Source of the DNA: Mesorhizobium sp. NZP2077
Lineage (GTDB): Bacteria; Pseudomonadota; Alphaproteobacteria; Rhizobiales; Rhizobiaceae
Assembly (NCBI RefSeq): GCF_013170805.1
Contig: NZ_CP051294.1
Coordinates: 248,001-312,000 of the forward strand
Direction of reading: 5' to 3'
DNA length: 64,000 nt
Shown here piece after piece: positions 31,651 to 62,655 of the stretch (its first letter is position 1; every line of letters starts with the position of its first letter). Below the pieces are notes generated by a model. That model did not search any database. It was not told the origin of the DNA and saw nothing but the letters and a program-made list of their open reading frames with translations. The position numbers were made by a program, and so were the translations under genes.

Positions 31651-31717
31651 ATAACAATTTGGCGTGCGCCACATGAGTTTTTGTCTGGTTGTCTTGCCCT
31701 ACACCGGCGGCTAGCGT
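31651..31717 (+). promoter_or_regulatory. Regulon-type promoter (site 1), before the StcD-like remnant
   Basis: ATAAC at 31651, second repeat ATGAG at 31673 (22 bp later), TTGTCT at 31689 (16 bp later) and TAGCGT at 31712 after a 17-bp spacer. The spacing is identical to five other sites at 35376, 51968, 54728, 54906 and 62331. It would start transcription just before the decayed StcD-like start codon and could also read toward the enolase-superfamily gene at 32238. Confidence 0.7.
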
Positions 31718-31752
31718 GCCCCTGTCCTGCCAGCACCAGCAAAGTGGGCAAA

Positions 31753-31863
31753 ATGGCAGCGTCTGGTATATTCCTCACTCCAGTAACCTTGCGCAACCGG
31801 CGGAACAATCACCGAGTTCAATGGCACGCCTGGATTGCCGAAGCGAAGACAGCCGCCAAGTAA
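31753..31863 (+). pseudogene. Decayed 5' end of an FMN oxidoreductase (StcD-like) gene
   Basis: It reads MAASGIFLTPVTLRNRRNNHRV, clearly related to the start MAASLKFLSPIELRTKALRNRVV of the gene at 35473, and then loses similarity. The upstream 100 bp, including the regulon-type promoter, is also similar between the two loci. Only about 20 codons are recognisable, so it is a relic. Confidence 0.65.
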
Positions 31864-31920
31864 CGCTTTGCAGACCGGCTCGCCCGGGCTGCTACGTTAT
31901 TGCTTGGCCTTGTTGAATGA

Positions 31921-32088
31921 ATGTCGCTCATTGGCGCAAAGAAGGCGAGTGCTCATATGGCGAAGATGGCAGATCGGCTTGAATTAAATTCGGTGAGAAC
32001 AGAAATTCTGGCGATCATCAAGGCTTTTATCGTGTGCGTTGCCCTCTTCCTTGCCGTGCTTACATTCAAATTTGGAATGGTCTTGTAA
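31921..32088 (+). CDS. Possible small single-pass membrane protein
   Basis: A 55-codon frame (MSLIGAKKASAHMAKMADRL at the start) ends in one strong hydrophobic helix, AFIVCVALFLAVLTF. It has no good ribosome site and no family match. Its support is the clean soluble-plus-membrane pattern and its position in front of the catabolic gene at 32238. It may be spurious. Confidence 0.3.
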   Translation: MSLIGAKKASAHMAKMADRLELNSVRTEILAIIKAFIVCVALFLAVLTFKFGMVL

Positions 32089-32237
32089 CTTTCGGTTGGC
32101 TTAAACGGCGGGCTGCATCGCTAAGTCTTCCGTCCCGGGCCGCATCGGGTCGTTCAGGCTAAGCCTCAGCGTCAGCTGGTGAGTGCCGGTTAGCGTTGAA
32201 CCCATCCGAAGGTCAATCTGAGAAAAAGGAAGATACC

Positions 32238-33353
32238 GTGTCCGACTGCGCCATCAAGAGTATTGATGTTTTCAAGGTGGATCTTCGTTATGAGGGCGGG
32301 ATTTATCAATTGTCCGGTGGGCGAGAGTACAGCCTCTTCGATGCCACGATCGTTAGAGTCACGACGAAGGATGGCCTCGAGGGTTGGGGGGAAAGCACCC
32401 CCTGGGGCTCCAATTATGTCGCGTCCCATGCTCTAGGCGTTCGATCAGGTATCGCAGAAATGGCGCCGCAGTTGATTGGTCTAGACCCCAGACGAGTGGA
32501 CCGGACCTATGACGCCATGGATGCAGCGCTGTTGGGCCACGAGCATGCCAAGACAGCAATCGACGTCGCCTGCTGGGATATTTTTGGTAAATCGGTGGGT
32601 TTGCCCGTGTGCGAACTATTGGGGGGACGCACTAACGTCAAGATGCCGGTTATTTCGTCGATCCATATGGATGATCCGGAACATATGCGCCGGAGCGTCG
32701 CTGAGCATCGCGCGATGGGATATCGAGGACACTCAGTCAAGGTTGGCGGGGAGCCTGCGGAGGACGCCGCAAGAATTGCAGCTGCGCTGGCAGATCAGAA
32801 GCCGGGAGAATTCTTTATCGTCGACGCAAACGGGGGGCTGACTGTCGAGACTGCTTTGCGTATGCTTCGGCTTCTTCCGCAGGGCCTAGACTTTGTTCTG
32901 GAGGCGCCGTGCGCAACGTGGCGGGAATGCATTTCCCTGCGCAGAAGGACCAATATTCCGATCTTCTTCGACGAACTGGCTACCAGTGATGCTTCAATCG
33001 TTCAGCTGATAGCTGATGATGCGACGGACGGAATAGGCTTGAAAATTTCCAAGAATGGCGGGCTTACGAAGGGGCGCCGCCACCGCGATATCTGTATTGC
33101 GGCCGGCTACACGATGAGCGTCCAAGAGACCGCAGGCTCTGATATTGCCTTCGCCGCCATCGTACATATGGGCCAGACCGTGCCGGAGAGATACCTTCGC
33201 TGTGTGCTTGAAAGTCGCGGTGTCTTATCCGGAAAAACTGCTGACGGCCCTTACGACGTCATTGACGGGCGTATTGTCGCGCCGAATCTGCCGGGCCTGG
33301 GCATCACGCCTCGCCTCGACTTCTTGGGGGATCCTGTTGCGAGTTACTCTTAG
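32238..33353 (+). CDS. Enolase-superfamily racemase/epimerase (hydroxyproline-betaine epimerase-like)
   Basis: A 371-residue member of the mandelate racemase/muconate lactonising group from GTG 32238, chosen because AAGGAAG precedes it by five bases; a TTG at 32196 has no such site. N-terminal capping domain, then the barrel with K168 in HSVKVGG, metal ligands D196 (VDANGG), E222 (LEAPC) and D245 (FFDEL), and the opposite lysine in GLKISKNGG (K269/K272). Lysines on both faces mean 1,1-proton transfer, that is racemisation or epimerisation. HpbD-type enzymes epimerise 4-hydroxyproline betaine and cluster with the same kinds of genes found downstream here. A dehydratase of the same fold acting on 3-hydroxyproline is the main alternative. 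Confidence 0.82.
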   Translation: MSDCAIKSIDVFKVDLRYEGGIYQLSGGREYSLFDATIVRVTTKDGLEGWGESTPWGSNYVASHALGVRSGIAEMAPQLIGLDPRRVDRTYDAMDAALLGHEHAKTAIDVACWDIFGKSVGLPVCELLGGRTNVKMPVISSIHMDDPEHMRRSVAEHRAMGYRGHSVKVGGEPAEDAARIAAALADQKPGEFFIVDANGGLTVETALRMLRLLPQGLDFVLEAPCATWRECISLRRRTNIPIFFDELATSDASIVQLIADDATDGIGLKISKNGGLTKGRRHRDICIAAGYTMSVQETAGSDIAFAAIVHMGQTVPERYLRCVLESRGVLSGKTADGPYDVIDGRIVAPNLPGLGITPRLDFLGDPVASYS

Positions 33354-35375: not shown

Positions 35376-35442
35376 ATAACCCTCAGTCGTGCACGACATA
35401 ACTTTTTGTCCCGTTGTTTTGCCCCTCTTCGCGCGTTAGCGT
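35376..35442 (+). promoter_or_regulatory. Regulon-type promoter (site 2), before the StcD-like gene
   Basis: ATAAC at 35376, ATAAC at 35398 (22 bp later), TTGTTT at 35414 (16 bp later) and TAGCGT at 35437 after a 17-bp spacer. The gene start at 35473 is about 30 bp downstream, so transcription would begin with a short leader. This is one of the best matches among the six sites. Confidence 0.8.
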
Positions 35443-35472: not shown

Positions 35473-37455
35473 ATGGCAGCTTCACTAAAGTTCCTCTCGC
35501 CCATCGAACTGCGCACCAAGGCACTGCGCAACCGCGTCGTTTTTGGTGCCCATACTGCAAACATGGCCGAGAACGGTTTGTCCGGGGCCCGCCATATAGC
35601 CTATTACGAGGAGCGGGCGCGGGGCGGCGCAGCTATGATCGTCGTCGAACCTATGCCCGTGCATGCGGCAACGGTCTTAACCAGAGGCAATTTTCGGCCT
35701 AGCGACGATTTGGTAATACCCGCGTTTACGCAGGTGACCGATGCGATCAAGCGTCATGGCGCGCTGGCAATCCAGCAAATTTACCACGTTGGCAGCCACG
35801 GCGACTCGGATCTTTCTTACCACGCCCATTGGTCTCCATCCGGTTCCCCAAGCTATCATGACAGTGACGGTTCACACGTCATGTCCGCAGCCGAGATCGA
35901 AGAAACGATCGATGGATTCGTGAACGCGGCACGCCGATGCCATGAGGCTGGCTTCAACGGGGTGGAAGTTTGGGCTGCCTATCACAGCTTGCTCGACCAG
36001 TTCTGGACACCATGGTCCAATCGCCGCGACGATCAATGGGGCGGCTCGCTCGGAAATAGGACGCGGCTGTCGCGAACGATCCTTCAGCGCATCCGGGAGG
36101 TTTGTGGGCCGGAGTTCATAGTCGGACTCGCCATCTCTGACGAACAGGATTCCGGTGGTGTTTTGGCTCGCCCGGACTTGGTCGACATCATTGCTGTACA
36201 TGATGAAGCTCGTTTGATCGATTATGTCACCTGTGGCACCGGCAGCTACTTCGACTTCTATAAGATTATGCCCACCTTTCTGTATCCCGAAAAGTTGGGG
36301 GTCGATCTAGCAGAAACCGTCAAGAAACGTGTCACGCACGCGCTGGTGATTGCGGAAAGCCATATCCGCACTCCGGAGAACGCCGAAGCCGTCATAGCGT
36401 CCGGGTCAGCGGACCTTGTGTCCATCGTGCGAGGCCAGATCGCCGATCCTCATCTTGTCAACAAAGCTGCCGCAGGCAGGCCCGAAGATGTGAGGGGGTG
36501 CCTTTCCTGTAATCAGATGTGCTGGGGCCGACGCTCACGCGATTACTGGATAAGTTGTCTTGTGAACCCGTCCGCCGGTCGAGAATTTGAGTGGGGTGGT
36601 GACCGCTTCGATAAGGCCTCTCGGCCTAACCGAGTCCTGGTTGTTGGTGGCGGCCCAGCAGGCCTCGAGGCCGCGCGTGTGGCAGCCGAACGTGGCCACA
36701 CTGTTACGCTTGCCGAGGCTTCTAGCGTGCTTGGCGGGAATTTCCGCCTTGCAGGCCTGCAGCCGCGAAGGGCGCAGATCTTGGAATTGCTCGAGTGGTA
36801 CGAAAGGCAGCTGCAAAGGCTGAACGTTGAAGTTCGACTGAACACCTACGTGGAAGCCGCCGAAGTGGTCGCTGAAGCAGCCGACCATGTGATCATTGCC
36901 ACGGGCTCACTTCCACGAGAAACGGGTTTTCAAAAGGCGTTGCCCCAATGGGACATCATGCCAGGGTGGGAGCGTGGCAACACGTATTCTGTCGAAGCGA
37001 TCATGGCTCGGCAGGCGCGGCCTGGTAAACGTGTTCTTCTACTCGATGAAAGCGGCGGCTGGCGAGGTTGCGGCACAGCTTGGAAACTCGCTGACGATGG
37101 CCATGAGGTGACGCTCGTAACGCCGGATCCCATGGTCGGCCGCGAATTGCAGCGAATGGCCGCAGATGCGCCCCTCCGAAAGGTGCTCGCCAAGCTTGGC
37201 GTTCACTTTGTTTTGGAAAGCAGCATACTCGAGTGGCACGGAGACGGCGCGACAGTTCTGTCGCACCTTGACGGCAGGCGTAGCTTTATCGAGGCCGATA
37301 CGATCGTTACGGCAACTACAAACGTGGCTGCGAATTCGTTGGCGCAGGAACTGCTAGCGTTAGCGGTCCCATTTCACGAAATTGGGGACGGGGTGGCGCC
37401 GCGGCAGGCCCCCTATGCAATATTCGAGGGTCGCAAGATCGGGCTCGCGCTTTAA
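35473..37455 (+). CDS. FMN/4Fe-4S/FAD oxidoreductase, N-methylproline demethylase-like (StcD type)
   Basis: A 660-residue enzyme of the trimethylamine dehydrogenase / 2,4-dienoyl-CoA reductase family. An N-terminal FMN barrel (MAASLKFLSPIELR ... LRNRVVFGAHT) is followed by the 4Fe-4S motif C343-x2-C346-x3-C350-x11-C362 (CLSCNQMCWGRRS). Next comes an FAD-binding Rossmann fold VLVVGGGPAGLEAARVAAER at about 394 and a C-terminal NAD-type half. Family members remove N-methyl groups from secondary or tertiary amines; StcD acts on N-methylproline in stachydrine catabolism. The betaine transporter, MttB-type gene and hydroxyproline genes nearby support an N-methyl(hydroxy)proline substrate (inference). 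Confidence 0.83.
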   Translation: MAASLKFLSPIELRTKALRNRVVFGAHTANMAENGLSGARHIAYYEERARGGAAMIVVEPMPVHAATVLTRGNFRPSDDLVIPAFTQVTDAIKRHGALAIQQIYHVGSHGDSDLSYHAHWSPSGSPSYHDSDGSHVMSAAEIEETIDGFVNAARRCHEAGFNGVEVWAAYHSLLDQFWTPWSNRRDDQWGGSLGNRTRLSRTILQRIREVCGPEFIVGLAISDEQDSGGVLARPDLVDIIAVHDEARLIDYVTCGTGSYFDFYKIMPTFLYPEKLGVDLAETVKKRVTHALVIAESHIRTPENAEAVIASGSADLVSIVRGQIADPHLVNKAAAGRPEDVRGCLSCNQMCWGRRSRDYWISCLVNPSAGREFEWGGDRFDKASRPNRVLVVGGGPAGLEAARVAAERGHTVTLAEASSVLGGNFRLAGLQPRRAQILELLEWYERQLQRLNVEVRLNTYVEAAEVVAEAADHVIIATGSLPRETGFQKALPQWDIMPGWERGNTYSVEAIMARQARPGKRVLLLDESGGWRGCGTAWKLADDGHEVTLVTPDPMVGRELQRMAADAPLRKVLAKLGVHFVLESSILEWHGDGATVLSHLDGRRSFIEADTIVTATTNVAANSLAQELLALAVPFHEIGDGVAPRQAPYAIFEGRKIGLAL

Positions 37456-37910: not shown

Positions 37911-38675
37911 TCAATAGACGGCCTTGGCGCCGGCAACTTCGAGGGTGGTTCCGGCAATGAAGCGGGCTGCATCTGAGCTCAGAAAATACACCGCATCAGC
38001 AATATCGTCGGGTGCTCCTAGCCGGCCAAGAGGATTGGACTTGCTGAGCTCGGCCACAGCCGTGTCCGGGTCGAACCCACGATGTACAAACCCAGAGCGT
38101 AGCATGGGCGTATCAATCTCGCCGGGACATATAGCATTGACCCTTATTCCATCCCCGGCATGGTCGCGGCCAAGACACTTTGAGAACGTCGCGACAGCCG
38201 CTTTGCTGGTGCAATATGCTGCGTGACTGGGTCCAGGATGGATGCCCCAGGTGGACGAGATATTCACGATCGATCCACCGCCGTTTTCCTTCATGTAAGA
38301 AATCGCACGTCGGCAGGTGTAAAAAACTGCTTTTAAATTGATATCAAACGTTCTCTCCCAATCCTCGTCGGTCGTTTCCAAAACGGTACCTCTTGTGATG
38401 ATCCCCGCGTTGTTGACGAGCGCGTCCAGACGGCCGGTCAGGCCGACGGCGGTATCGATCAGGCCCTCGCAGTACGCCTTGCTGCGTAGGTCCCCGGCTT
38501 TAGCCAATGCATTTTGACCCGACCGGTTCAGTTCAAGGGTTGTCTCATTCAGTCGGTCCGAATTGGTGTCGCTGGCGACGACGAAATATCCGTGTGCGGC
38601 GAAACGTTTGCAGATGGCTTCACCCATTCCGCCAGCGGCACCGGTAACAACGACGGTTTTGGTTTCAAGAGTCAT
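37911..38675 (-). CDS. Short-chain dehydrogenase/reductase
   Basis: A 254-residue classical SDR: TGAAGGMGEAI (cofactor loop), NNAGI at about residue 88, Ser in NISSTWG and the catalytic Tyr-x3-Lys in AAYCTSKAAV. The acidic residue SDTN after the second strand favours NAD(H). The substrate is unknown; a hydroxy acid or sugar-type alcohol is usual for FabG-like proteins. Divergent from the GlxA-type regulator at 38908, which may control it. Confidence 0.85.
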   Translation of the reverse strand: MTLETKTVVVTGAAGGMGEAICKRFAAHGYFVVASDTNSDRLNETTLELNRSGQNALAKAGDLRSKAYCEGLIDTAVGLTGRLDALVNNAGIITRGTVLETTDEDWERTFDINLKAVFYTCRRAISYMKENGGGSIVNISSTWGIHPGPSHAAYCTSKAAVATFSKCLGRDHAGDGIRVNAICPGEIDTPMLRSGFVHRGFDPDTAVAELSKSNPLGRLGAPDDIADAVYFLSSDAARFIAGTTLEVAGAKAVY

Positions 38676-38907
38676 CTAAAGCACCATCTCCGGAATTGCA
38701 GCTCGAACGTCATAAGCTAGACCACAATTTGGTTCCGTCGCGCTTGGAAGCGACGTCGATTGGGCGGACCTGTCGTTCTTGTATGGCCCGCAAGATCGAC
38801 ATTCCCTTATTCTGGCCCAAGCGGTCGTCGTGGCAGCTAGTGACCAGCGCGTGCACTCACTACTTCAATACGTGGCAGGGCAATTAGCCTATAATCGAAG
38901 GCGGGTG

Positions 38908-39927
38908 ATGGGACCAGAGCTGCGCAAAGTGCCAAAGGTCAAGCTATCGGTCGGCATCATTGTCACTCCCCGTTTCACGTTGAGTGCCCTAGGAAATTTC
39001 GTCGATGTGCTGAGGCTGTCGAGCGACGAGGGTGACCGAAGCGAACGGAGAAACTGTGATTGGAGAATGGTGTCAGACACCATGAGCCCGGTTCGCTCGA
39101 GCTGCGGTCTCAACGTTCAGCCTGATCAACGATTAGGCGACCCGAGGCGGTTTGACTATATTGCAGTTGTTGGAGGGCTTATCGAGCGATCTGCAGAAGT
39201 AGGTCCAGCCTACCAAGGGTTCCTGCGCGAAGCCGCCCAAAGGGCAGTGCCGCTTATTGGAATTTGTACGGGGTCGTTCCTGCTTTACAAACTCGGCCTG
39301 TTGGACGGCTACAGGTGTTGCGTTAGCTGGTTCCACCACAACGATTTCCTTGAAAATTGCGGAGGACCAGAGCCCGTCTCGAACCGGATGTTCGTTGTGG
39401 ATCGTGACCGCTTGACATGCCCGGGGGGTAATAGTTCCGCGTATCTAGCGGCTTGGCTCGTTGAGCGCCACGTAAGTGAGACAGCAGCAAAAAAAAGCCT
39501 GCGTATGTTGAACATACCGGACCTGAAGGGCCCTGAGGAAGTTCAGCCAGGCGTTCCGCTGAAGATGGCGACGAATGAGCCTACGACCCGGAAGGCCCTG
39601 TTGTTTATGCACCAGAATCTTGATGCCGCCCTAACAATCGATCGTGTATCCAGACACGTTGGTCTCAGCAGGCGGCAGCTCGAACGTAAATTTATCGACG
39701 ATTTGGGAATGACGCCCAGTAAAGCGCTTCGCCAGATGCGCTTGGACCAGGCCGAAGCTCTGCTCCTAACGACCGGCAAAAGCTTGGCAAATATAGCATT
39801 GGAATCCGGTTTTTCAGACGACTCTCATCTCGTCCGGTTGTTCAGGCACTATCGGGGGGTGACGCCCAACACCTTTCGCAGTGCCGCGATATCCAATCCC
39901 ACACAAGAAATCTATGCGGGCAGCTGA
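38908..39927 (+). CDS. GlxA-family AraC-type transcriptional regulator
   Basis: A 339-residue protein from ATG 38908, with GGCGG just upstream; an earlier in-frame ATG at 38779 adds 43 residues of poor quality. The DJ-1/PfpI-like domain has RRFDYIAVVGG and PLIGICTGSFLLYKLGL with the elbow Cys, then LTCPGGNSSAYLAAW. The C-terminal AraC DNA-binding domain (about 240-325) has LTIDRVSRHVGLSRRQLERK and NIALESGFSDDSHLVRLFRH. It is a candidate activator of the shared promoter family, since its direct repeats 22 bp apart suit AraC-type proteins. It overlaps the convergent receiver-like gene by 16 bp. Confidence 0.87.
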   Translation: MGPELRKVPKVKLSVGIIVTPRFTLSALGNFVDVLRLSSDEGDRSERRNCDWRMVSDTMSPVRSSCGLNVQPDQRLGDPRRFDYIAVVGGLIERSAEVGPAYQGFLREAAQRAVPLIGICTGSFLLYKLGLLDGYRCCVSWFHHNDFLENCGGPEPVSNRMFVVDRDRLTCPGGNSSAYLAAWLVERHVSETAAKKSLRMLNIPDLKGPEEVQPGVPLKMATNEPTTRKALLFMHQNLDAALTIDRVSRHVGLSRRQLERKFIDDLGMTPSKALRQMRLDQAEALLLTTGKSLANIALESGFSDDSHLVRLFRHYRGVTPNTFRSAAISNPTQEIYAGS

Positions 39928-40313
39928 GAGATCATTAATTGGACCAATGAGGCAGGCACAACCGGTTCTTCGAGCCGGCTGATAGAATCGAACTTGGCGG
40001 GTATGTCCGACGTATTATGCCCGACCAGAAATATGAAAGGGATCTTGCGACGTGCCAAGTGTTCTGCCGCCACAAAGGTCGCCTCGCCCTGTAGATTGAC
40101 ACCTAGGATGGCTCCGTTGATCGGAGCCGACGACATGATGATATCAAGTGTGTCTTCAATCGTGCTGACCGGGTAAATGACGTCCGCACCAACTTGTACA
40201 AACGACTCTCTAAGCGCGAAAGCGACTGCGAAATCGTCCAATGCAATCAGGATGCTGCAGTCTTTGAGGGTCCTAAGGTTCAAAGCTTTTCTCCGACCAA
40301 TGCCGTTGCTCAC
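39912..40313 (-). CDS. Degenerate response-regulator receiver-domain protein
   Basis: A 133-residue stand-alone receiver fold: CSILIALDDFAVAFALRESF, INGAILGVNLQGEATFVAAE and RRKIPFIFLVGHNTSDIP follow the CheY pattern. At the phospho-acceptor position the expected Asp (as in ALLDVNL) is Gly71, and the conserved Lys before the last helix is also missing (LEEPVVP). It cannot be phosphorylated in the usual way, so it is a pseudo-receiver or a phosphorylation-independent partner. The start is GTG 40313. Intact single-domain receivers of this sort are common in rhizobia. Confidence 0.7.
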   Translation of the reverse strand: MSNGIGRRKALNLRTLKDCSILIALDDFAVAFALRESFVQVGADVIYPVSTIEDTLDIIMSSAPINGAILGVNLQGEATFVAAEHLARRKIPFIFLVGHNTSDIPAKFDSISRLEEPVVPASLVQLMISQLPA

Positions 40314-40360
40314 CGCTGTTGGTGCCTCGAGGTCGATGACACGGGTCGCTGCCTGCCGAA

Positions 40361-41605
40361 CTAGCCTAACAGTCGCTCTTCAAACGGATAGTTAGAGAGC
40401 AGTTCATAGCCATCGGAGGTTACGAGCAACTGCTCTTCCAACTTGACACCATCTCTTTCGCCAACCGCACCGATGTAGCTCTCAACACAGATGACCATGC
40501 CAGCCTCAAGGGTCGCGTCATAAGCCACGGGCCCCCGAAACGACGGCTTGACCTGGGGATATTCGTCGCACATGCCAACGCCGTGGATCAATGCGGGGTA
40601 CGCCTGTTGCCGGAATTCCTCTGGGACCGGCCAAGCTGAAGCTTGAAGATCCTTCATGCTCAGGCCAGCGCGTATCAGCTTCATGTTCGTTTGCAACTCG
40701 TCGTAAGCGAACTGGTAAAGCTGCTTCTGCCGCGCGCTTGGCGCCTCTTTCCCGTAGTAGAATGTCCGAGAGACATCGCAGAAATATCCGAATGGCCCAA
40801 CCATATCGGTATCAAAACCAACCAGATCACCCGGCTCGATCACACGCTGAGTGGCTTCTTGCAACCATGGATTAATCCGCGGACCTGACGCAAGCATCCG
40901 CCCCTCATGCCAGCCTCCCTGATTGGCAAGATTGGTATAATTGAGCAGCCCCCACAGTTGCAATTCCGTGACCCCCGGGCCCATGCTTGCCTCCATGTGG
41001 GCAATGCCGTGTTCCGCCACGGCGCAAGCCCAGCGAATACAAGCGATCTCGTCGTCAGATTTGATGACTCGAGCGCCCTCCACGATGCTAACCGCATCGA
41101 CAACCTCAAGACCGCGATCCATCAAAGCCTGCGTAATGCTGGGATTGACGTACTCGACCGCTACCTTCCGGTTGGTGGTACCGATCTCGCTGAGGAATGA
41201 GACAACATCATCCGCGAAGAGCTTTGCGGTTTCCGGCAGCTCATTACCGCCTTCAAAAAAAGAGATCGGCCTTCCTGGTCTGACGCTGTCGGCCGAGGAA
41301 GCGAGAGTAAATGCCTGATGAAGGGTAATTGGGCCATCGAGCGGCAAAAAGAGATAGGTGACAGGAATATGAGACTGGAACAGGGGGAAGGTGTTGTAGT
41401 CGACCGTATACCGGATAGTGATCGGACTTACTAGGATGCAAAGTGCAACATCTGCCTCACGCATAGCTGACCGGAGCCGCTCCTTCCGATAGCCGTCGAG
41501 ACGTTTAAAGTCGATGGCCGGCATGGGGCGAAATTTGCGCAAATCGCTCCAATTATCGCTAAGGACGAGGCCGTCAGGACCTGGCGTAATCAACTTATTA
41601 TCCAT
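40361..41605 (-). CDS. M24-family metalloenzyme, DddP-like
   Basis: A 414-residue protein from ATG 41605, preceded by AAGGGGGG. N-terminal creatinase domain, then a metal-dependent M24 domain. Ligands are all visible: Asp in GFDTDMVGPFGYFCDVSRTF (two Asp), His in LIHGVGMCDEYP, Glu in ICVESYIG and Glu in KLEEQLLV. WHEGRMLASGPRINPWLQEA and the GMCDEYP region resemble the DMSP lyase DddP, but other M24 hydrolases share much of this. It could cleave DMSP or hydrolyse another substrate from the betaine/proline network. Unlike EutD at 3661 it keeps the metal site. Confidence 0.72.
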   Translation of the reverse strand: MDNKLITPGPDGLVLSDNWSDLRKFRPMPAIDFKRLDGYRKERLRSAMREADVALCILVSPITIRYTVDYNTFPLFQSHIPVTYLFLPLDGPITLHQAFTLASSADSVRPGRPISFFEGGNELPETAKLFADDVVSFLSEIGTTNRKVAVEYVNPSITQALMDRGLEVVDAVSIVEGARVIKSDDEIACIRWACAVAEHGIAHMEASMGPGVTELQLWGLLNYTNLANQGGWHEGRMLASGPRINPWLQEATQRVIEPGDLVGFDTDMVGPFGYFCDVSRTFYYGKEAPSARQKQLYQFAYDELQTNMKLIRAGLSMKDLQASAWPVPEEFRQQAYPALIHGVGMCDEYPQVKPSFRGPVAYDATLEAGMVICVESYIGAVGERDGVKLEEQLLVTSDGYELLSNYPFEERLLG

Positions 41606-41936
41606 CGCGGACCCCCCTTCTGTGTCAACAGCGTGCCATGCGGCAAGCTTGGCACCCTTCAACATATGCGGCGACCTTAGGAGCCGGCTGTACCTACTTC
41701 AAATGAGTATTAATGGTGAGCCGGATAACCAGGAGTCATAGCTGGACTGGATTTGCCCCCTTATCGACGCCTGGGATTTCGGGTTCTGACTTAGAACCAG
41801 GCCCATGACTGTAGATTGTCCGTCACATGACTTTTTCGATGCTTGCGAGGACGTCAAAACTGGCTGTAATCGAGATAGACCTTCAGGTCGCCCGTATATT
41901 CTCGTCGGGCTCAACTCCTCTGAGCGAGACACAACC
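41606..41936. other. Divergent intergenic region
   Basis: About 330 bp between the DddP-like gene and the SDR at 41937. It holds no convincing gene. CACATGACTTTTTCGATGCTTG at about 41822 loosely resembles the second repeat and -35 part of the local promoter family, but the -10 part is missing, so I do not count it. TACTCATTTGAAG occurs inverted near 41697, a string also seen at 33971 and 63779. Confidence 0.4.
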
Positions 41937-52946: not shown

Positions 52947-54596
52947 TTAGGCCTTTGAGAGCCAAACTTTGCCGAGATCGATCTCGAAAGTCGGGTGCAT
53001 CGGGAAGTCTTTGACCTGCTTCGTGGAGTGGTGAAACACCGAAAGCCAGTAAGGCTGGATGATGATGCCAGAATCCTGCAAAAGCGCCTCAATTTCCTGC
53101 ATCAGAACCTTACGCTTTGCCGGGTCCGGAACTGCCAACGCGGCGTCCAGTTTCTCGTCGAACTTCGGGTTCGACCACCCTGTTTCGTTCCATGCGACGC
53201 CACTGCGATAGGCCAAAACAAGATTTTGCACCCCGAGCGGCCGGTGATTCCAGTTGGTTATCGAAAGCGGGTATTTTAACCAGTCATTGTAGAAGGTGCT
53301 GCTGGGCAGGACCGTCCGCTTGACCTTGAACCCTGTCTCGCGAAACTGCGCAGCGATCGCATCGCCGGCGTCTTTAAGCCAATCCGTGTCCGGACTGATG
53401 ATATTATGTTCGAAGTCGAACTGGCCAGCCTCGGTCATCAGGTGCTTGGCGGCATCAATGTCCCGTTTAGTCTCTGGGAGCGGATAAAATTCGGGATGTA
53501 TCGGCGCTACATGATAGTTGGCACCAACCGTACCGCGTCCATCGTTGGCAAGCTGTAAAATGGATGCATTGTCGACGGCCAATTGTAGCGCATTGCGTAC
53601 CCGCTGGTCATCGTACGGCTTGTTAGTGACTTGGGTGCGGCATAGCAGCGTTGTCGCCGTCTTCGCCTCGGAGATCACCAGACCCAGCTGGTCGTAGGAC
53701 TTGATGCTATTGGCATAGGTCTGGTAGTTCGCATCGATCTCACCGGACTCGAAAGCACTCGGCACGACGGTCGCATCGGACCCATAGTCGATAAACTGAA
53801 CCTCATCCAGGTATGCTTCGCCGCCCCACCATTGTCCCTGAGTGCGACGCTTCAGGACGGCCTTTTGGCCCACATCCCAAGATACCAGCTCAAATGGACC
53901 GGTGCCAATCGGGTGTTTGATGAGGTCGGAGCCATTTTTCTCGAAGTCGCGGTGCACGACCAGCGCCGGGTAGTCTGCGATTCCGGGGATAATGGTGATG
54001 TCGGGCTTCGACAGCTTGAGTTTGACCGTGTGGTCATCAACCTTAAGGATGGCGCCATCCTGGGCCTTGCCTGTTTTATCGTCGATCAATGAGCTTAGTC
54101 GTGTGGCCATCGAGTTGCCGGCGGCGTCTCTCTCACACCAACGCCTAAGGTTGAAAATGACATCATCGGCGGTAAAGTCGTCACCATTGTTCCATTTCAC
54201 ACCCTTTCTGAGGTGCAAGACGTATTCCTTGGCATCTTCACTCGTATCCCAGCTCTCCAGCAGCCGGGGCTCAAATGTGTATTCAGTAGTGTATTTGACC
54301 AATGGCTCCAGGAACTGGCGGTAAATGTTGGCAAGCTCTGAAACGTCAACGGTACGCGGGTCCTTCGCGCCATATACGATCATCGCCACTCGCAACGTGC
54401 CGCCTTTGGTCACAGCGTCTTCGGCATGCGCAGACGGAACCGCACCGAGCATCGAGTAAGCAACGGCGGTGGACGCGCCGAAGATGGAAGCGAGAGCCAG
54501 GAATTCCCGTCTGTCCATATCGCCCTTCCTGACGTCATCAGCGAGATTGCCGAAGAGTTTGGGCAGTCGGTTGCCATTTCTGCTGAAAAAACGCAT
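52947..54596 (-). CDS. Family 5 (dipeptide/oligopeptide-type) substrate-binding protein
   Basis: A 549-residue SBP_bac_5 protein from ATG 54596, which has GGGGAGC five bases upstream. A twin-arginine signal [20 protein letters not shown] starts about residue 27 and ends near SAHA. The mature part has [20 protein letters not shown], the family signature around [23 protein letters not shown] and [13 protein letters not shown]. No matching permease or ATPase genes are in the window, so it is an orphan or works with a system elsewhere. It has its own regulon-type promoter at 54728-54794, which ties it to the betaine/hydroxyproline genes. Confidence 0.87.
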
Positions 54597-54727
54597 GTGA
54601 AGCTCCCCAAGGTTATTCGAACGGCTCATGCGGCGACAGTGCCGCTAGGCCGTCATTAAGCACCGACAAACCTAGAATTCCTGAGGGAATTCAGCGCGGC
54701 GTCAGAGGTTTGCCCCTGATGACAAGA

Positions 54728-54794
54728 ACGCTAGCCATGCGCATCCCCCAAAACAACCTGATAAAAAGTTATGCGCGGCGCCAAGGAAAGTTAT
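54728..54794 (-). promoter_or_regulatory. Regulon-type promoter (site 4), before the binding-protein gene
   Basis: Read leftward: ATAAC from 54794, ATAAC from 54772 (22 bp later), TTGTTT from 54756 (16 bp later) and TAGCGT from 54733 after a 17-bp spacer. The gene starts about 130 bases further on. Confidence 0.8.
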
Positions 54795-54905: not shown

Positions 54906-54972
54906 ATAACATTTTGGCCCACGTTTCATTACTTTTCGTTTGGTTGCTTTGCCTCCCCCATCTCGCTAGCGT
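54906..54972 (+). promoter_or_regulatory. Regulon-type promoter (site 5), before the MDR reductase gene
   Basis: ATAAC at 54906, ATTAC at 54928 (22 bp later), TTGCTT at 54944 (16 bp later) and TAGCGT at 54967 after a 17-bp spacer. The reductase ATG is at 55014. With site 4 it forms a back-to-back pair. Confidence 0.78.
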
Positions 54973-56143: not shown

Positions 56144-56210
56144 ATGGCAAAGCTGAGTATCGCGTCAATCGATGTCTTTGCCCACCGTCGCCCGTCTTCA
56201 ACAGATCCGA
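56144..56210 (+). pseudogene. Possible remnant of an enolase-superfamily start
   Basis: ATG 56144 with AAGAAG upstream opens MAKLSIASIDVFAHRRP, which looks like the first strand of mandelate-racemase/enolase-superfamily proteins (compare CAIKSIDVFKVDL at 32238). After about 15 residues the frame is unrelated and overlaps the racemase gene. It suggests that an enolase-superfamily gene was lost here by deletion. Confidence 0.4.
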
Positions 56211-56219
56211 AAGATCAAG

Positions 56220-57314
56220 ATGTCCAACGCCCCGAGCTACGAAATTCCGGTCTCCTCCACGTTCACGGCCTACGATTGCCACTGCGAAGGCGACGTGGAA
56301 AAGGTTGTCGTCTCAGGCCTACCTGAACTACCTAAGGGGACAGCATTTGAAAAGATGAAGTTTTTTCGAAAGCATCATGACGATATCCGCTTGTTCTTTC
56401 TCCGCGAGCCTCGTGGCAGCATGATTCAATCTGTAAATTTTATCGTGCCAACGGAAAATCCGGAAGCGGTTGCTGCATACATTATTGCCGAGGCGGAAGA
56501 GTATCCGGAAATGTCAGGTGGCAACACGATCAGCGTGGCAACGACCATGCTGAAGACCGGCATGGTTCCGATCACAGGCCCGGTGACCCGGTTCAAGCTT
56601 GAGGCCCCTGCAGGCCTCATCGGCATCGAGTGCGATACGGCTGACGGAAAGGTCGGTGCGGTCCGGTTTATCAACCAACCTGCTTTCGCCTACTGCCTTA
56701 ATAAGACCATCCAGCTGCCGGGCTTTGGCGACCTTACCGTTGACGTCGGCTATGGCGGCATGACTTACGCTATCGTCAACGCACGGCAGTTTGGGTTTGA
56801 CCTCGTTGCATCCGAGGGCCGGAGGCTGAGCGACTTGGGGCAGGAGATCAAGGCAGCGGCTGCGGCGCAGATTCCGGTGTCACACCCGCTGAACACAGAG
56901 CTTCCGGGCATTACTCAGACAATGTTCGTGACTCCGATCGAGCGTTCCGACCGGGGAGTAGAATCGAAGAACGCGGTGATCGTTTCCCCTGGACGCGTCG
57001 ATCGCTGCCCGTGCGGTACGGGAACATCCGCGCGTTTGGCTGTCATGCATGCCAAGGGTGAAATCGCGGAAGGGGAGCGATTTACCCATAAATCGCTGAT
57101 CGACTCAATCTTTACCGGGGAGATCCTCGCCACGACAACAGTTGGGCCGTACAGCGCCATTATTCCGGCCGTCAGTGGACGCACCTGGATCACCGCGAAG
57201 TGCTCCTACATTCTGGAAAAGGACGATCCCTACCCCGCGGGCTATGCAATTACTGACACCTGGCCGCAAATGACGCCTGAGCACGTCTCGGTCGCAGGCA
57301 CCGCGCACGCATAA
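56220..57314 (+). CDS. Proline racemase-superfamily protein, Ser/Cys type
   Basis: A 364-residue protein from ATG 56220 (56172 is a longer option). The two catalytic positions are S99 in EMSGGNTISVAT, where epimerases usually have MCGHG with Cys, and C265 in DRCPCGTGTSARLA. So it is a Ser/Cys variant, unlike the Cys/Cys paralogue at 62656. An N-terminal extension of about 20 residues and SFxx-type inserts also differ. Superfamily members epimerise (hydroxy)proline or dehydrate 3-hydroxyproline; the exact reaction cannot be read from these residues. Same strand as the MDR gene, 90 bp after it. Confidence 0.83.
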   Translation: MSNAPSYEIPVSSTFTAYDCHCEGDVEKVVVSGLPELPKGTAFEKMKFFRKHHDDIRLFFLREPRGSMIQSVNFIVPTENPEAVAAYIIAEAEEYPEMSGGNTISVATTMLKTGMVPITGPVTRFKLEAPAGLIGIECDTADGKVGAVRFINQPAFAYCLNKTIQLPGFGDLTVDVGYGGMTYAIVNARQFGFDLVASEGRRLSDLGQEIKAAAAAQIPVSHPLNTELPGITQTMFVTPIERSDRGVESKNAVIVSPGRVDRCPCGTGTSARLAVMHAKGEIAEGERFTHKSLIDSIFTGEILATTTVGPYSAIIPAVSGRTWITAKCSYILEKDDPYPAGYAITDTWPQMTPEHVSVAGTAHA

Positions 57315-57318
57315 GTTC

Positions 57319-58347
57319 TTATCGGAGCGGAAGGGTTGGTAGTTCGCCCGATGCCGGCTCAGTGAGAGTAATTTCCTCGGCGCCGGCGATGGATGCCGGT
57401 ATCTGGCCGCTAACCGTCAACGGCATAGGATTGAGACCAGCTACCTGCGTGATGAGCCAGTCCCGGAAGATCTGGACATCTTCCCGGTCGAGTGCGGCAT
57501 CCGGAATCACCAGATGATGCTTTCGGCCCGTCAGATAACTTTCTGTCACGGGTCGTATCAAGACACCCTCATTGAGGTAGTCACTTACCACGTGGCGCCA
57601 TCCAAGCCCGATGCCAAAGCCTCTGATAACGGATTGGATCATCGTTGAGTAATTGTTGAACGTAATCGCACGCTTGAAATCGGCCGAGACCCCAAACTGA
57701 CCGAGCCAGCCAGCCCAATTGAAGGGTGACCAGGGGTAGACGGACCAATGCTGGTCATCCATATCAAGCAGGACCTCGTTGACCAGATCACTGGGCGCCA
57801 CAATAGACGGCGAGTGCGGCAGATACGATTTCCCACAGATCGGAAAGACCTCCTCCGCGAAAAGCTCGACAGCGGTGAACCCCGGCCGCGGCAGGTGCCC
57901 CATCACCACAGACACGTCAAAACCATCGGTCGCCGGCGCGGGGCTGCGTTCGAGAGAGACCAGGTGGAGATCGATGTTCGGATTGTTCATGATAAAATCG
58001 CCGATCCTGTGGCTCATGAACATGGTGCCGAACGACATCGGCATTCCCACCGTTAGCCGCCTAGCTTTTTGCCCCCTGCGCACGCTGTCAAAAGCCGCAG
58101 CGATGTGTGCAAGACTCAGGGTGGTAGCTTCAAACAACTCTTCACCTGCGGGCGACAACGACACCTTCTGGTTTCCGCGATTGAAGAGCTGCGTGTCGAG
58201 GTGATCCTCAAGCGTCAGGATATGCCGGCTTACGGCCGCCTGAGTAACGGAGAGTTCATTGGCAGCCTTCGTAAAGCTTACGTGACGAGCTGCAGCCTCA
58301 AATGCTCGCAGCGCGCTCAACGGCAGCCGTCGATAATCCTTGGACAT
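57319..58347 (-). CDS. LysR-family transcriptional regulator (GcvA-like)
   Basis: A 342-residue LysR protein. Winged helix: PLSALRAFEAAARHVSFTKA, ANELSVTQAAVSRHILTLED, LFNRGNQKVSLSPAGEEL. The effector domain has PMSFGTMFMSHRIGDF and FGIGLGWRHVV. It is intact and convergent with the racemase gene (4 bp between stops). About 45 residues at the C-terminus (SGQIPASIAGAEEITLTEPA) extend beyond the usual family length. It may respond to a proline-type ligand (inference from neighbours). Confidence 0.88.
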   Translation of the reverse strand: MSKDYRRLPLSALRAFEAAARHVSFTKAANELSVTQAAVSRHILTLEDHLDTQLFNRGNQKVSLSPAGEELFEATTLSLAHIAAAFDSVRRGQKARRLTVGMPMSFGTMFMSHRIGDFIMNNPNIDLHLVSLERSPAPATDGFDVSVVMGHLPRPGFTAVELFAEEVFPICGKSYLPHSPSIVAPSDLVNEVLLDMDDQHWSVYPWSPFNWAGWLGQFGVSADFKRAITFNNYSTMIQSVIRGFGIGLGWRHVVSDYLNEGVLIRPVTESYLTGRKHHLVIPDAALDREDVQIFRDWLITQVAGLNPMPLTVSGQIPASIAGAEEITLTEPASGELPTLPLR

Positions 58348-58460: not shown

Positions 58461-59798
58461 CTATTCGCGGCCGGCGTGCCATTCTCTGTATGCCAGGTTA
58501 ACCCGTGCACCCACGGCTGTGAACGGCCGCGGAGGCAAGGCCTGGGGCTCATCGAACGCGCTGAAAACTTTGCCGAGTGCCGACTGATGGCCGAGTAACA
58601 GCTCCGCGGTCGCTATACCGGCCGACGTGGACTTGGTTCCGCCGATGCCGTTGCAAGCACAGGCCGCGAAAATCCCTTTTTCCACCTGGCCGAACAGAGG
58701 AACGGAATTGCGGGTCAGCGCCATCGCGCCCGCCCAGCGATACTGCATTTTGAGGTGACGGTGATCGGGGAACCGATCGGCGAATTTGCGATCGAGGAGG
58801 GCCCCTGCCCTCCTCATCGTGCCACCGCCTGCTTCGATGTTGGGGTTGTATGTGTAACGCGAGCGTACCAGTAGCCGGTCGCTGTCTACCCCATTGATTC
58901 GGCGAATCGTCGTTCCCATTGGCGCCGCCGGCGTCGCGCCCCACTTCCTAGATCCGCCAAGCGAAGATGGCGCGAACGGTTCAGTCAGCGCGGCGTACGT
59001 AAAAACATGGAGAAGTTCTCCTCTTCCGAATCCGAAGCTTTCGGCATGCCCGTTGGTAGCCAGAACCACCCGCCCTGCTTTGACTGTGCCTTTCGGGGTT
59101 TTCACGACACAGCCGGAAGACGAGGCCTCAATGGATAGGGCCGGCGTCCGCTCGAATAGCCTGATCGACCCCTGAAATAGGTCAGCAATTGCTCGCACCA
59201 TCGCGGCGGGCTGGACCATGACGGCACCGGGTGTGAAAAGCCCTGATTTGAATGATCGTGTCCCTGTGAGCTCTTGTGTCTCCGTCTCACCCAGCAGTTG
59301 ATTAGGTTCGCCCATCGACTTGAGCTGGGACGAGTACTCCTCGAGATGCTTAGTGCCTGACTCAGTCATGGCGACGCTATATTTGCCGCTCGGATCGAAA
59401 ATGTCTTTGTCCCAGCCATTTTCCTGAGCGAGGCGAGCGTAGAGTTGAATAGCCGTGCGAGCGACCAGGATCTCGTCGCGGTTTTGAGCAGCCGCATCGA
59501 CCCCGAAATTTCCCGAGGCAATGTCGTGAGGCAGATCAATGAGAAACCCAGAATTTCGGCCACTGGCACCATTGCCAACCAGATCGGCATCGATGATGGC
59601 TACCGACAAATTTGGGTCGAGTTCCGATAGCCTCACAGCGGCTGCAAGGCCCGCAAAGCCCGCGCCTATGATGACGACGTCGGCGTTGATGCCGCCATCT
59701 AGCGCGGGCGTTGGGGTCCTGGGAGGAAGCAATGCCGTCCAGCCGGATTGCGCGCCGTGGTTAGGAAGACGACGTGCGTGGAACGTCTTAGTGGTCAT
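58461..59798 (-). CDS. FAD-dependent D-amino-acid oxidase-type oxidoreductase
   Basis: A 445-residue DAO-family flavoprotein. VVIIGAGFAGLAAAVRLSEL is the FAD-binding fold, AIIDADLVGNGASGRNSGFL the next strand, and RVVLATNGHAESFG and YRWAGAMALTRNSVPLFGQ later motifs. It resembles amine and secondary amino acid oxidases such as PuuB. With the DapA-family and aldehyde dehydrogenase genes before it, the likely job is oxidation of cis-4-hydroxy-D-proline to the pyrroline carboxylate. ATG 59798 overlaps the previous stop by four bases, so translation is coupled. Confidence 0.86.
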   Translation of the reverse strand: MTTKTFHARRLPNHGAQSGWTALLPPRTPTPALDGGINADVVIIGAGFAGLAAAVRLSELDPNLSVAIIDADLVGNGASGRNSGFLIDLPHDIASGNFGVDAAAQNRDEILVARTAIQLYARLAQENGWDKDIFDPSGKYSVAMTESGTKHLEEYSSQLKSMGEPNQLLGETETQELTGTRSFKSGLFTPGAVMVQPAAMVRAIADLFQGSIRLFERTPALSIEASSSGCVVKTPKGTVKAGRVVLATNGHAESFGFGRGELLHVFTYAALTEPFAPSSLGGSRKWGATPAAPMGTTIRRINGVDSDRLLVRSRYTYNPNIEAGGGTMRRAGALLDRKFADRFPDHRHLKMQYRWAGAMALTRNSVPLFGQVEKGIFAACACNGIGGTKSTSAGIATAELLLGHQSALGKVFSAFDEPQALPPRPFTAVGARVNLAYREWHAGRE

Positions 59799-60694
59799 CG
59801 TGCTGTTTCTTTTTCAACCAAGGGCCCCAAGGCCGCTTTAAGAGCTGCAATACGTTCTGCGGGCACCGGCCTGAAGGGTTTCCTCACTGCGCCGCTGCTG
59901 TAGCCCGTAATTTCTGCGGCTGCATACGCACTTGGAACATAACCGCCATAGTCGCCCTGCCAAAGCAGCGACATGATAGGCTCGAGGATGCGCCACTGGG
60001 CCTGAACGTCGTCCCAACGCTTTTCCTTGGCCGCCTTGACGATTGCCACGCAGGCGCGAGGCGTGACGTTCGCACCGCCCCAGATCAGTCCTGAACAACC
60101 TGCAAACAGAGAGAAAGGTACGAGTGGATCCGCACCATTGAGGATTTCAAGGCCGGTACCGATCAACTGAACCTGCGAGGTCAGATCTCCACTACTGTCC
60201 TTGATTGCGCGGAACTCCGGAAGTTCGCAAAGCCTGCGGAGCAGGTCGGGAGTTATTCGTACACCGACTGCCTGAGGCACATTGTAGCCAATGATAGGCA
60301 AACCGACCTTGGCGACTTCCGCATAAAAATCAAAAACGCTGTCGTCGGTCGACGGACCTTCGAAAAACGGAGGAAGCAGCATGACTCCGTCGGCCCCGGA
60401 GTCCTTCGCAAATTGGGTCCTGTCGACTACGTCGGCGGTCAGCAGAGCCGAGGTTTGAGCAATGACCTTCGCCCGTCCCGCAACGATACGGGTGCCCCGT
60501 TCTATAAGGGCTTTAGACTCGTCCGTCGTGAGGTAGACGTGCATACCGGTGCCGGAGCTGAACACGAAACCATCAACACCTGCAGCCAGATATCGCTCGA
60601 CGTGCTCCTCCAGGCGGTTGAAGTCGAGGCGACCTTTGGCATCGAATGGAGTTGTGATTGCCAGATTGAGACCTTGGAAAGCAAATGACGACAT
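59795..60694 (-). CDS. DapA-family lyase/deaminase (pyrroline-4-hydroxy-2-carboxylate deaminase-like)
   Basis: A 299-residue N-acetylneuraminate lyase/DHDPS superfamily barrel. The Schiff-base lysine is in FRAIKDSSGDL, the Tyr in IIGYNVPQAV and the substrate loop at FSSGTGMHVYLTTDE (in place of GTTGE). In hydroxyproline catabolism a family member deaminates Delta1-pyrroline-4-hydroxy-2-carboxylate to 2-oxoglutarate semialdehyde. The aldehyde dehydrogenase gene immediately upstream and the oxidase immediately downstream fit that pathway step for step. Gap to the upstream stop is 1 bp. Confidence 0.84.
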   Translation of the reverse strand: MSSFAFQGLNLAITTPFDAKGRLDFNRLEEHVERYLAAGVDGFVFSSGTGMHVYLTTDESKALIERGTRIVAGRAKVIAQTSALLTADVVDRTQFAKDSGADGVMLLPPFFEGPSTDDSVFDFYAEVAKVGLPIIGYNVPQAVGVRITPDLLRRLCELPEFRAIKDSSGDLTSQVQLIGTGLEILNGADPLVPFSLFAGCSGLIWGGANVTPRACVAIVKAAKEKRWDDVQAQWRILEPIMSLLWQGDYGGYVPSAYAAAEITGYSSGAVRKPFRPVPAERIAALKAALGPLVEKETAR

Positions 60695-60695
60695 T

Positions 60696-62183
60696 TCAGA
60701 AACCTCCGTTAGAGCTGCTCAGGTCAACCCACAGGGTTTTTATCTGGCAATACTGATCGTGTGCGTGCAGGGACTTGTCGCGGCCACCGAAACCGGATTG
60801 TTTGTAACCTCCGAACGGGGTTGCGGCGTCGCCCTCCCCGTAGGAGTTCACAGTAACTGTGCCCGCATTGATTGCCCGGGCGGCGCGAAGCGCACGCGTG
60901 CCGTCACCACTGAATACCGAGGCCGCCAAGCCGTAGTCAGTTTCATTAGCGAGAGAAACCGCCTCCGCGAGGGATTTCACAGCAATCACCGAAAGGATCG
61001 GCCCGAAGATCTCTTCCTTGACGTGGCGGCCTTCGTGACGCTTGAATTCAATGATTGTGGGCTCGATAGTAGTGCCATCGACGGCATTCCCACCGATAAT
61101 CACCTTGCCATCGTGCTCGAGATAGCTGCTCACCTTCTCAAAATGGGTCGCAGAAACGAGCGGTCCGATGCGGGTCTGTGGGTCCAGCGGGTCACCCACG
61201 ATCCACGTCTTGGTTACAGCGGTAAGCTTCTCGAGCAGACGATCCTTAACATCCACATGGACGAAAAGACGTGAAATTGCCGAACAGTTCTGACCCATAT
61301 TCCAGAAGGCGCCGTTTGCGATATGAGCAGCCACGGCATCGAGATCCGAGGCGTCTTCCATCACGATGCAAGGGTTCTTGCCTCCAAGTTCAAGCACAAC
61401 TTCCTTCAGGTTGCTTTCAGAGGAGTACTTGAGGAAGCGCCGGCCAGTCTCAGTCGAGCCTGTAAACGAGATGGCATCAATGCCAGGGTGGCGTCCAATC
61501 GGTTCGCCGACGTCAGGACCGTCACCGGTCACAACGTTGAAAACTCCGGCAGGCACTCCGGCATCGAGTGCAAGCTCCGCTACCCGCAAGGTCGTCAGCG
61601 ACGTTTCTTCGGCCGGCTTTACGACAATTGTGCACCCCGCTGCAAGGGCCGGGCCTATCTTCCAAGCCAAGGTCAAAAGCGGGAAATTCCACGGCAGGAC
61701 GATCCCCACCACCCCGATCGGCTCGCGCACAATAAGACCAAGTGCTGCATCGTTCGCGGGGGCGACCTGATCATATATTTTGTCAATGGCTTCCGCGTGC
61801 CATCGCAGGCTGTTTACAGCCTCGGGGACGTCGATATTGGTGCAGTCGCCAATGGTCTTGCCGCTGTCTAGGCTTTCCATCAGTGCAAGTTCGGACGTGT
61901 TCTCCTCGATGAGTGAAGCAAGACTGAGCAAAACTTTTTTGCGGGCGGCTGGAGCGAGTTTCGACCAACGGCCGTCCTCGAGGGCATGCCGAGCGGCGGC
62001 AACCGCCTGGTCCACATCTGCGGCCGAACCCGCAGGAATCTCCGCCAAAACCTCGCCTGTCGCAGGGTTCAGTGTCTTGAAGGTTTTGCCCGATAGAGCG
62101 GCTGTCTGCACCCCATCCACAATCATGCTGGTTGGAAATCCGAGCGATTGGGCCTGGGTCTCATAGTCGACTTTGTTCAGCAC
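60696..62183 (-). CDS. Aldehyde dehydrogenase (2-oxoglutarate semialdehyde type)
   Basis: A 495-residue ALDH from GTG 62183, chosen for AGGGAGAACTGAA upstream; an in-frame start at 62315 adds 44 residues. VLPWNFPLLTLAWKIGPAL, FTGSTETGRRFLKYS, catalytic Glu in LELGGKNPC, catalytic Cys in NMGQNCSAISRL. It is a paralogue of the ectoine-locus ALDH at 8216. As first gene of the operon with the DapA-family and oxidase genes, it most likely oxidises 2-oxoglutarate semialdehyde to 2-oxoglutarate. The regulon-type promoter at 62331-62397 drives the operon. Confidence 0.87.
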   Translation of the reverse strand: MLNKVDYETQAQSLGFPTSMIVDGVQTAALSGKTFKTLNPATGEVLAEIPAGSAADVDQAVAAARHALEDGRWSKLAPAARKKVLLSLASLIEENTSELALMESLDSGKTIGDCTNIDVPEAVNSLRWHAEAIDKIYDQVAPANDAALGLIVREPIGVVGIVLPWNFPLLTLAWKIGPALAAGCTIVVKPAEETSLTTLRVAELALDAGVPAGVFNVVTGDGPDVGEPIGRHPGIDAISFTGSTETGRRFLKYSSESNLKEVVLELGGKNPCIVMEDASDLDAVAAHIANGAFWNMGQNCSAISRLFVHVDVKDRLLEKLTAVTKTWIVGDPLDPQTRIGPLVSATHFEKVSSYLEHDGKVIIGGNAVDGTTIEPTIIEFKRHEGRHVKEEIFGPILSVIAVKSLAEAVSLANETDYGLAASVFSGDGTRALRAARAINAGTVTVNSYGEGDAATPFGGYKQSGFGGRDKSLHAHDQYCQIKTLWVDLSSSNGGF

Positions 62184-62655
62184 TTCAGTTCTCCCTCGTG
62201 TCCCAATGACATCGACAACAATGTTCCGTGGAGCTCGCCCTGCATGCGCAAGGTGCGTGGGCACCCCCAACTCGACAAGGACGGCGCTATACATGGCCGT
62301 CAAACTGGCTCTCATGCGCGGAGTTCAGGAACGCTAGAAGCCTGCAAATACTAAAACAACCGGATAAAAAGTTATGCGCGGTAACCCTAAAAGTTATCGA
62401 GAATGGACGCTTCGCACGTTGGCAAGAAACGGACCGGACAGCGGCTGATCGAACCTACAGGCGGCGCGCCGCCGAGGACGGCCGCTCAGATATTCAACGT
62501 CCCTGTCGCGGCTGTTCTACGTCGCCAGACCAAAGCATCGTAGGTATTTGAAGGCTGGAGCAAAGGACTTAGCCTTTTCCCGGCCTCGTCCCATCGCCTC
62601 TACTGCGCACCTCGGCATATGTTTAGAAGGGTGCCAACACCGCAAAGCGGAAACC
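62184..62655. other. Divergent control region
   Basis: About 470 bp between the aldehyde dehydrogenase and the proline racemase-type gene. It contains the leftward regulon-type promoter at 62331-62397. To its right no matching rightward promoter was seen; short frames such as 62403-62543 have no family match. Confidence 0.5.
62331..62397 (-). promoter_or_regulatory. Regulon-type promoter (site 6), before the aldehyde dehydrogenase operon
   Basis: Read leftward: ATAAC from 62397, ATAAC from 62375 (22 bp later), TTGTTT from 62359 (16 bp later) and TAGCGT from 62336 after a 17-bp spacer. Transcription would begin near 62324. This leaves a leader of about 140 bases to GTG 62183, or almost none to the alternative start at 62315. 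Confidence 0.8.

Follow-up and report, generated by a model that had tools for sequence, protein, structure and literature searches.

A shared operator–promoter element points to an AraC-type regulon at a betaine and hydroxyproline-type gene cluster of Mesorhizobium

Mesorhizobium is a genus of legume symbionts, and in Mesorhizobium sp. NZP2077 a stretch of 64,000 nucleotides (the window; positions 248,001 to 312,000 of contig NZ_CP051294.1, assembly GCF_013170805.1) carries a gene cluster whose family matches indicate betaine import and betaine and hydroxyproline-type catabolism. It includes the operon proW-proX-proV-mttB, closed by the gene of an AraC-family regulator (R2), a number of further enzyme genes, a paralogue of R2 (R1) and a LysR-type regulator gene, and it harbors six copies of an element, here named operator I, in which two ATAAC-type direct repeats are followed by a -35-like box and by TAGCGT (Table 1). 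Based on their common build and on comparisons across the genus, we consider it likely that the six sites form one family of activator-dependent promoters, with R2 as the ligand-responsive activator.

Table 1. Predicted promoter elements, regulators and principal target genes in the window
Feature	Position	Strand	Target or remark	Basis
Operator I and promoter	31651-31717	+	OYE-like decayed start (by eye), then open reading frame (ORF) 32196-33353	
Operator I and promoter	35376-35442	+	FadH/OYE-type oxidoreductase 35473-37455	
Operator I and promoter	51968-52034	-	Operon proW-proX-proV-mttB-R2	
Operator I and promoter	54728-54794	-	SBP_bac_5 solute-binding protein 52947-54629	
Operator I and promoter	54906-54972	+	Zn-dehydrogenase (ATG 55014) and 56172-57314	
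Operator I and promoter	62331-62397	-	ALDH, DapA-like, DAO, perhaps LysR	
R1	38779-39927	+	R2 paralogue, same family	Pfam
R2	45796-46890	-	AraC-family regulator, DJ-1/PfpI-like N-terminal domain and HTH_18	Pfam
MttB-superfamily methyltransferase	46941-48461	-		PF06253
proV, proX, proW	48564-51730	-	Glycine betaine/proline-type ABC importer	Family match
LysR-type (GcvA-like) regulator	57319-58347	-	Perhaps target of 62331(-)	
DAO	58461-59798	-	Target of 62331(-)	
DapA-like	59795-60694	-	Target of 62331(-)	
ALDH	60696-62315	-	Target of 62331(-)	

The initial annotation, made from the letters of this DNA, had described six promoters of one layout, and all six were recovered at the positions and on the strands of Table 1, each with the spacings described for them, i.e. 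22 bp from ATAAC to the second repeat, 16 bp from there to the -35-like box, and a 17-bp spacer before TAGCGT. The -35-like box reads TTGTTT at four of the six sites, TTGTCT at 31651 and TTGCTT at 54906, and the gap-free alignment of the six spans 69 bp with the common sequence nnATAACnnTnnGnnnnnCnnnnCATnACTTTTTnTCnGGTTGTTTTGn13GCTAGCGT. In a leave-one-out weight-matrix scan the sites scored 46.6-68.9 bits, each ranking right after its five training sites, and with a matrix trained on all six the top non-site in the window reached -15.4 bits. A consensus with 33 fixed bases (at most five mismatches) matched only these six in the window. The genome-wide search that the initial annotation had proposed, run with the consensus pattern ATAAC-N16-CATNACTTTTTNTCNGGTTGTTTTG-N15-TAGCGT at up to three mismatches over the 7,689,947-base genome, likewise returned these six only, and its reversed-pattern control gave 0. 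Thus, with the same geometry in all six and no other copy in the genome, the pattern is real and not a product of chance. Two of the sites, 54906(+) and 54728(-), are divergent and lie 111 bp apart.

The regulon had been called local, which holds for the sites of the cluster and fails for their confinement to this locus, as the same element was found in nine other Mesorhizobium genomes. The pattern including TAGCGT matched 25 places in 8 of 146 genomes of the genus; because it demanded TAGCGT, conservation of the -10 region was partly built in, and so an operator-only search in which the -10 was not demanded was made, yielding 27 places in the same 8 genomes out of 144 searched (union of both searches, 29 places). 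Genomes G117 and G004 carry the same gene cluster and element with the repeats 21 instead of 22 bp apart, as paired AraC half-sites would lead one to expect, and a 21-bp pattern matched only these two of the 144. In total, 31 copies of operator I were located in 10 of the 144 Mesorhizobium genomes, the own genome and nine others, with reversed controls of 0 throughout. No copy was detected in other genera among 394 genomes of the family sampled from 109 genera, where the own genome alone matched; the sample included seven other Mesorhizobium genomes, none of them a carrier. When the GTDB representative contigs were scanned for exact matches to the second operator half, 12 stretches were returned, nine of them in Mesorhizobium (sp. 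YC-39, M. temperatum, M. tianshanense, M. amorphae plasmid pM0123d and a metagenome-assembled genome, MAG) and three, presumed to be chance matches, in a Lysobacterales MAG, Mucilaginibacter and Polaribacter. Among the genomes searched, operator I occurs only in Mesorhizobium genomes with R2-type genes.

Conservation within the element was read from an alignment of 26 places (25 distinct copies) matching the TAGCGT-demanding pattern with at most five mismatches. The ATAAC, CAT-A, TTTT and GTTG columns were invariant and CTAGCGT nearly so, a result partly built in because the pattern required most of all these columns, while the 20 bases ahead of ATAAC carried at most 0.84 bit, 9 of the 17 spacer columns less than 0.6 and the columns from 70 onward at most 0.64. 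The first repeat is often ATAACATTTAGTC and the second is ATRACTTTTTGTC or near it. In 25 of the 31 places, a count partly selected for by the pattern, exactly 17 bp separate TAGCGT from the -35-like box; the six exceptions have TAGCAT, TACCGT, TAGTGT or TACCAA at 17, TAGCGT at 18 or TACCAT at 16. The six sites outside the reach of the TAGCGT pattern show TAGCGT at 17 (n = 3) or at 18 (n = 1), TACCAT at 16 and TACCAA at 17. Retention of TA together with a spacing of 17 ± 1 is what a -10 box, as predicted here, would show.

The genes behind the sites were assigned by family. The 51968(-) site lies 237 bp from the listed proW start, and the genes of the operon follow one another closely, with gaps of 5, 0, 102 and 50 bp from proW through proX, proV and mttB to R2. 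ProX matched the PDB glycine betaine-binding protein 1r9l at E 1.7e-99; the MttB-like protein found its best PDB match in 4yyc (‘putative trimethylamine methyltransferase’, E 1.2e-153) and matched the glycine betaine methyltransferase 9yce at E 5.5e-109, so it is possibly a betaine:corrinoid-type methyltransferase. A corrinoid-protein gene was not identified among the ORFs scanned. By family, MttB and ProXWV would serve betaine import and demethylation. At 35376, the oxidoreductase start codon lies 30 nt past TAGCGT, and at 54906 the site precedes a Zn-dehydrogenase gene followed by a gene of the trans-3-hydroxyproline dehydratase/proline racemase family. The listed (longest) ORF of the Zn-dehydrogenase starts at 54771, upstream of its own promoter, and the in-frame ATG at 55014, 41 nt past TAGCGT, is its likely start. 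DAO, DapA-like protein and ALDH (aldehyde dehydrogenase), behind 62331(-), presumably correspond to HypO, HypD and HypH of the lower hydroxyproline route, their families being partly below curated cut-offs. The claim that all six sites stand upstream of betaine or hydroxyproline-type genes survives in part, failing at 31651, with no complete gene directly behind it, and at 54728(-), where the gene is that of a peptide/nickel-type solute-binding protein, not evidently a betaine gene. In the other genomes, where ten downstream proteins from a subset of the sites were scanned, the element precedes SBP_bac_5 importers, an OpuAC-type binding protein, S15/CocE-type hydrolases, an amidohydrolase, and an amidase followed by an S15 hydrolase.

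Some features of the surroundings may be recorded here. By eye, the leader and initial codons that follow site 31651 (31718-32195) resemble a decayed copy of the OYE start at 35473, for which protein and DNA BLAST gave no support. The stretch 37911-45681 holds SDR, M24 peptidase (DddP-like) and hydantoinase-A-type genes of the cluster without operator I, so these may be under R1 or other control. The left side of the cluster (17283-31213) contains TniB, phage-type integrases, an IS91-type/integrase fusion ORF (25690-28077) and an IS66-like ORF, as well as tandem ISL3-type transposase ORFs (19316-20914 and 21013-22611) identical at 533 of 533 translated positions.

An AraC/GlxA-type activator had been suspected from the layout, with two genes of the cluster as candidates, and the comparative evidence favors this type and, of the two, R2, as R2 tracks the sites across species and R1 does not. 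Both proteins contain PF01965 (N-terminal, DJ-1/PfpI-like) and PF12833 (C-terminal AraC HTH); against the NCBIfam GbdR equivalog model R2 scored 218.8 bits and R1 162.9, neither reaching the cut-off of 480. Relatives of R2 with at least 77% identity were found in G000, G025, G037, G090, G136, G140 and G142, all site-bearing, and the remaining three site-bearing genomes have relatives of 67-71% in the same cluster (MttB 82-88%). In 10 of 10 operator-I genomes R2 directly follows mttB, proW and proV lie upstream of it, and the site precedes proW; in G037 the proV/SDR part and mttB are about 4.9 kb apart, and proX was unmatched in the G117 and G004 clusters. In a tree of 30 R2-type proteins, which represents 28 of the 30 R2-type-bearing genomes (G075 and G111, with a stop in the gene, were left out), the ten R2 proteins group as one clade (support 0.995), whose attachment among the other R2-type proteins is poorly supported. 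Among 397 genomes of the order, a sample in which Mesorhizobium was sparsely represented and no more than five candidates were scored in the listed genomes, a match to R2 at E 1e-110 was found only in the own genome.

Class II activation by AraC-type proteins works from this arrangement, with two direct half-sites spaced by two turns and the nearer of them set against the -35 box. By this model, an R2 dimer would bind the two ATAAC-type half-sites, the downstream one abutting or overlapping the -35 box TTGTTT, and from there would bring sigma-70 RNA polymerase to TAGCGT, a poor -10 element. The ligand is probably an imported N-methylated (hydroxy)proline, a related betaine or a breakdown product, and liganded R2 would turn on the betaine importer, the methyltransferase and R2 itself, together with the OYE-type oxidoreductase, the dehydratase-type enzymes, the DAO-DapA-ALDH route and the peptide-type solute-binding protein. 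The place of R2 as last gene of an operon with the operator in front suggests positive autoregulation, and R2 is probably autoregulated. Binding, activation, the promoter boxes, the ligand and the pathway are inferred in this model.

A second element, operator II, was met upstream of mttB in other genomes. In the form TTTAGTCAAC-N6-GTGAGACTTTTGCANTAGGTC it was seen in 14 of 14 mttB upstream regions read, and TTTAGTCAAC-N6-GTGAGACTTTTGCA was found at 19 places in 17 of 144 genomes (reversed control 0). TAG lies 37 bp from GACTTTT in 17 of these 19 places (36 and 38 in the other two), which equals the TAGCGT distance of operator I. The R2 relatives of these genomes have 59-72% identity and mostly stand beside a more distant MttB (47-50%). 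No genome carries both operators (10 and 17 of 144). An R2-type gene (at least 59%) is present in 27 of 27 genomes with either operator versus 30 of 144 overall (Fisher P 3e-26, for genome sets that were compiled by hand and contain related, non-independent genomes). In G111, operator II is kept with a stop inside the R2-type gene. In the simplest account, R2-type proteins would bind both elements, protein and operator having diverged together.

Against R2 stands the distribution of the LysR-type gene. Its orthologues (at least 79% identity) were found in the 10 operator-I genomes and in no other of the 144, in several of them directly before the proW promoter, so that co-occurrence alone cannot tell R2 from a LysR protein acting on the same sites and genes. 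LysR regulators, however, recognize T-N11-A dyads, a pattern that direct repeats two turns apart at the -35 box do not fit; none of the 17 genomes with the partly similar operator II, which stands before mttB, has an orthologue of this gene, and co-inheritance of one mobile cluster sufficiently explains the perfect match. We therefore regard the LysR-type protein as an unlikely regulator of these promoters. For R1 as the activator there is its membership in the family of R2, its location in the same cluster in G000 and G025, and weaker relatives (39-48%) in some other site-bearing genomes; it was rejected because a close orthologue is present in just 2 of 10 operator-I genomes (own and G025), and its own gene has no operator I in front, which makes this role highly improbable. 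A third regulator of the family was observed between ALDH and LysR in the clusters of other species (L034:10155-11150, with equivalents in L031, L039, L042, L043 and L044); it has 39-43% identity to R1, the L034 copy scored 222 bits against the GbdR model, and none was seen at that place in the window.

The sites themselves might instead go back to a single repeat element that multiplied by duplication or transposition and has no regulatory function. Mobile-element genes do adjoin the cluster on its left, and the leaders of 31651 and 35376 look alike by eye. Yet neither the 20 bases ahead of the element nor 9 of its 17 spacer columns are conserved between copies, and apart from sites 31651 and G025:C3:168203 a same-orientation ORF of at least 150 aa follows within ∼650 nt in the inspected cases, so that a functionless repeat is the least credible of the explanations considered. 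Points against the regulon under R2 are that site 31651 is not immediately before an intact gene (the enolase-superfamily, cis-3-hydroxyproline dehydratase-like ORF starts ∼480 nt downstream) and that G025:C3:168203 has no clear target; its substrates are taken from family names, several under NCBIfam cut-offs. G054, G075 (stop inside the gene) and G132 have an R2-type gene and neither operator at the thresholds used.

The resemblance of the operators is partial. Of the 25 distinct operator-I copies, 13 contain TTTAGTC without mismatch, none of them among the 6 of the window (nearest TTTAGGC and TCAGTC); ACTTTT is present in 22 of the 25 and GACTTTT in 7, and operators I and II differ by 2 bp in how far apart the two words stand. 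The operator-I weight matrix found no credible site at five R2-relative loci, all scores being negative; two scores above the shuffled maximum (67-bp matrix; L045 and L046) fall inside R2-type genes. Positions 294, 295 and 318 of the protein, in its DNA-binding domain and considered as possible specificity changes, split 8 operator-I from 5 operator-II proteins and failed at 10 versus 16, with G117 and G004 resembling the operator-II group at 295 and 318; in the DNA-binding domain, position 296 alone separates the 10 from the 16. The word counts and the failed positions make the kinship of the two operators weaker. As a tentative history, which we would put at somewhat less than an even chance, the ancestral R2-type regulator may have acted through operator II before an mttB operon, and a derived clade with the mobile betaine/hydroxyproline cluster may have acquired operator I, mutually exclusive with the former, its regulon later spreading to peptide importers, S15 (X-Pro-type) hydrolases and an amidase.

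What results is a sharply defined regulon, with candidate regulator and operator named, for betaine/proline-type catabolism in Mesorhizobium, and two operator types with different regulator branches as a natural case for co-divergence of AraC-type regulators and their sites. Since the shared operator would tie the MttB-like protein, S15-type hydrolases and peptide-type binding proteins to one inducer, their function becomes testable. If the tentative history above is true, one AraC-type activator would couple the scavenging of plant (hydroxy)proline peptides and proline betaine to corrinoid-dependent demethylation in rhizobia.

Among known systems, the corrinoid methyltransferases of the MtgB/MtpB type, of which MtpB is from Eubacterium limosum, act in betaine demethylation, and the MttB-like protein of the operon resembles them through its match to 9yce. 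The regulators closest in kind are CdhR and GbdR of Pseudomonas aeruginosa, AraC-family proteins with a GATase-1-like domain and thus of the same architecture as R2. Pseudomonas CdhR, described as a class I activator, binds direct GGTCGC half-sites with a 15-bp spacer (21 bp) upstream of the promoter and enhances its own expression, and its sites are called very similar to those of GbdR, SouR and ArgR (PMC5806209). CdhR and GbdR likewise control quaternary-amine uptake and catabolism from half-sites about two turns apart; here, the half-sites begin with ATAAC, are 22 (21) bp apart and touch the -35 box, unlike the class I arrangement of CdhR, and share at most a GTC core with GGTCGC, the GbdR half-site being given as GCCGC. 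The candidate targets also differ in including an MttB-type methyltransferase and hydroxyproline-type enzymes. HypR is a GntR-family regulator of the proline/4-hydroxyproline regulons of Proteobacteria, acting negatively in S. meliloti and in some Gammaproteobacteria including proline (di)peptidases and a peptide permease among its targets (PMC5343134). Its regulons, as described there, overlap with the present cluster in hydroxyproline-type catabolism genes, whereas the candidate here is an AraC-type activator and betaine import and mttB genes are added. The statement that no regulon with this pattern had been described stands for the open-access literature searched, and is qualified by the type of control being familiar from GbdR, CdhR, SouR and ArgR: what is new is the regulon itself and the difference of operator type inside one genus, and what is known is the kind of control.

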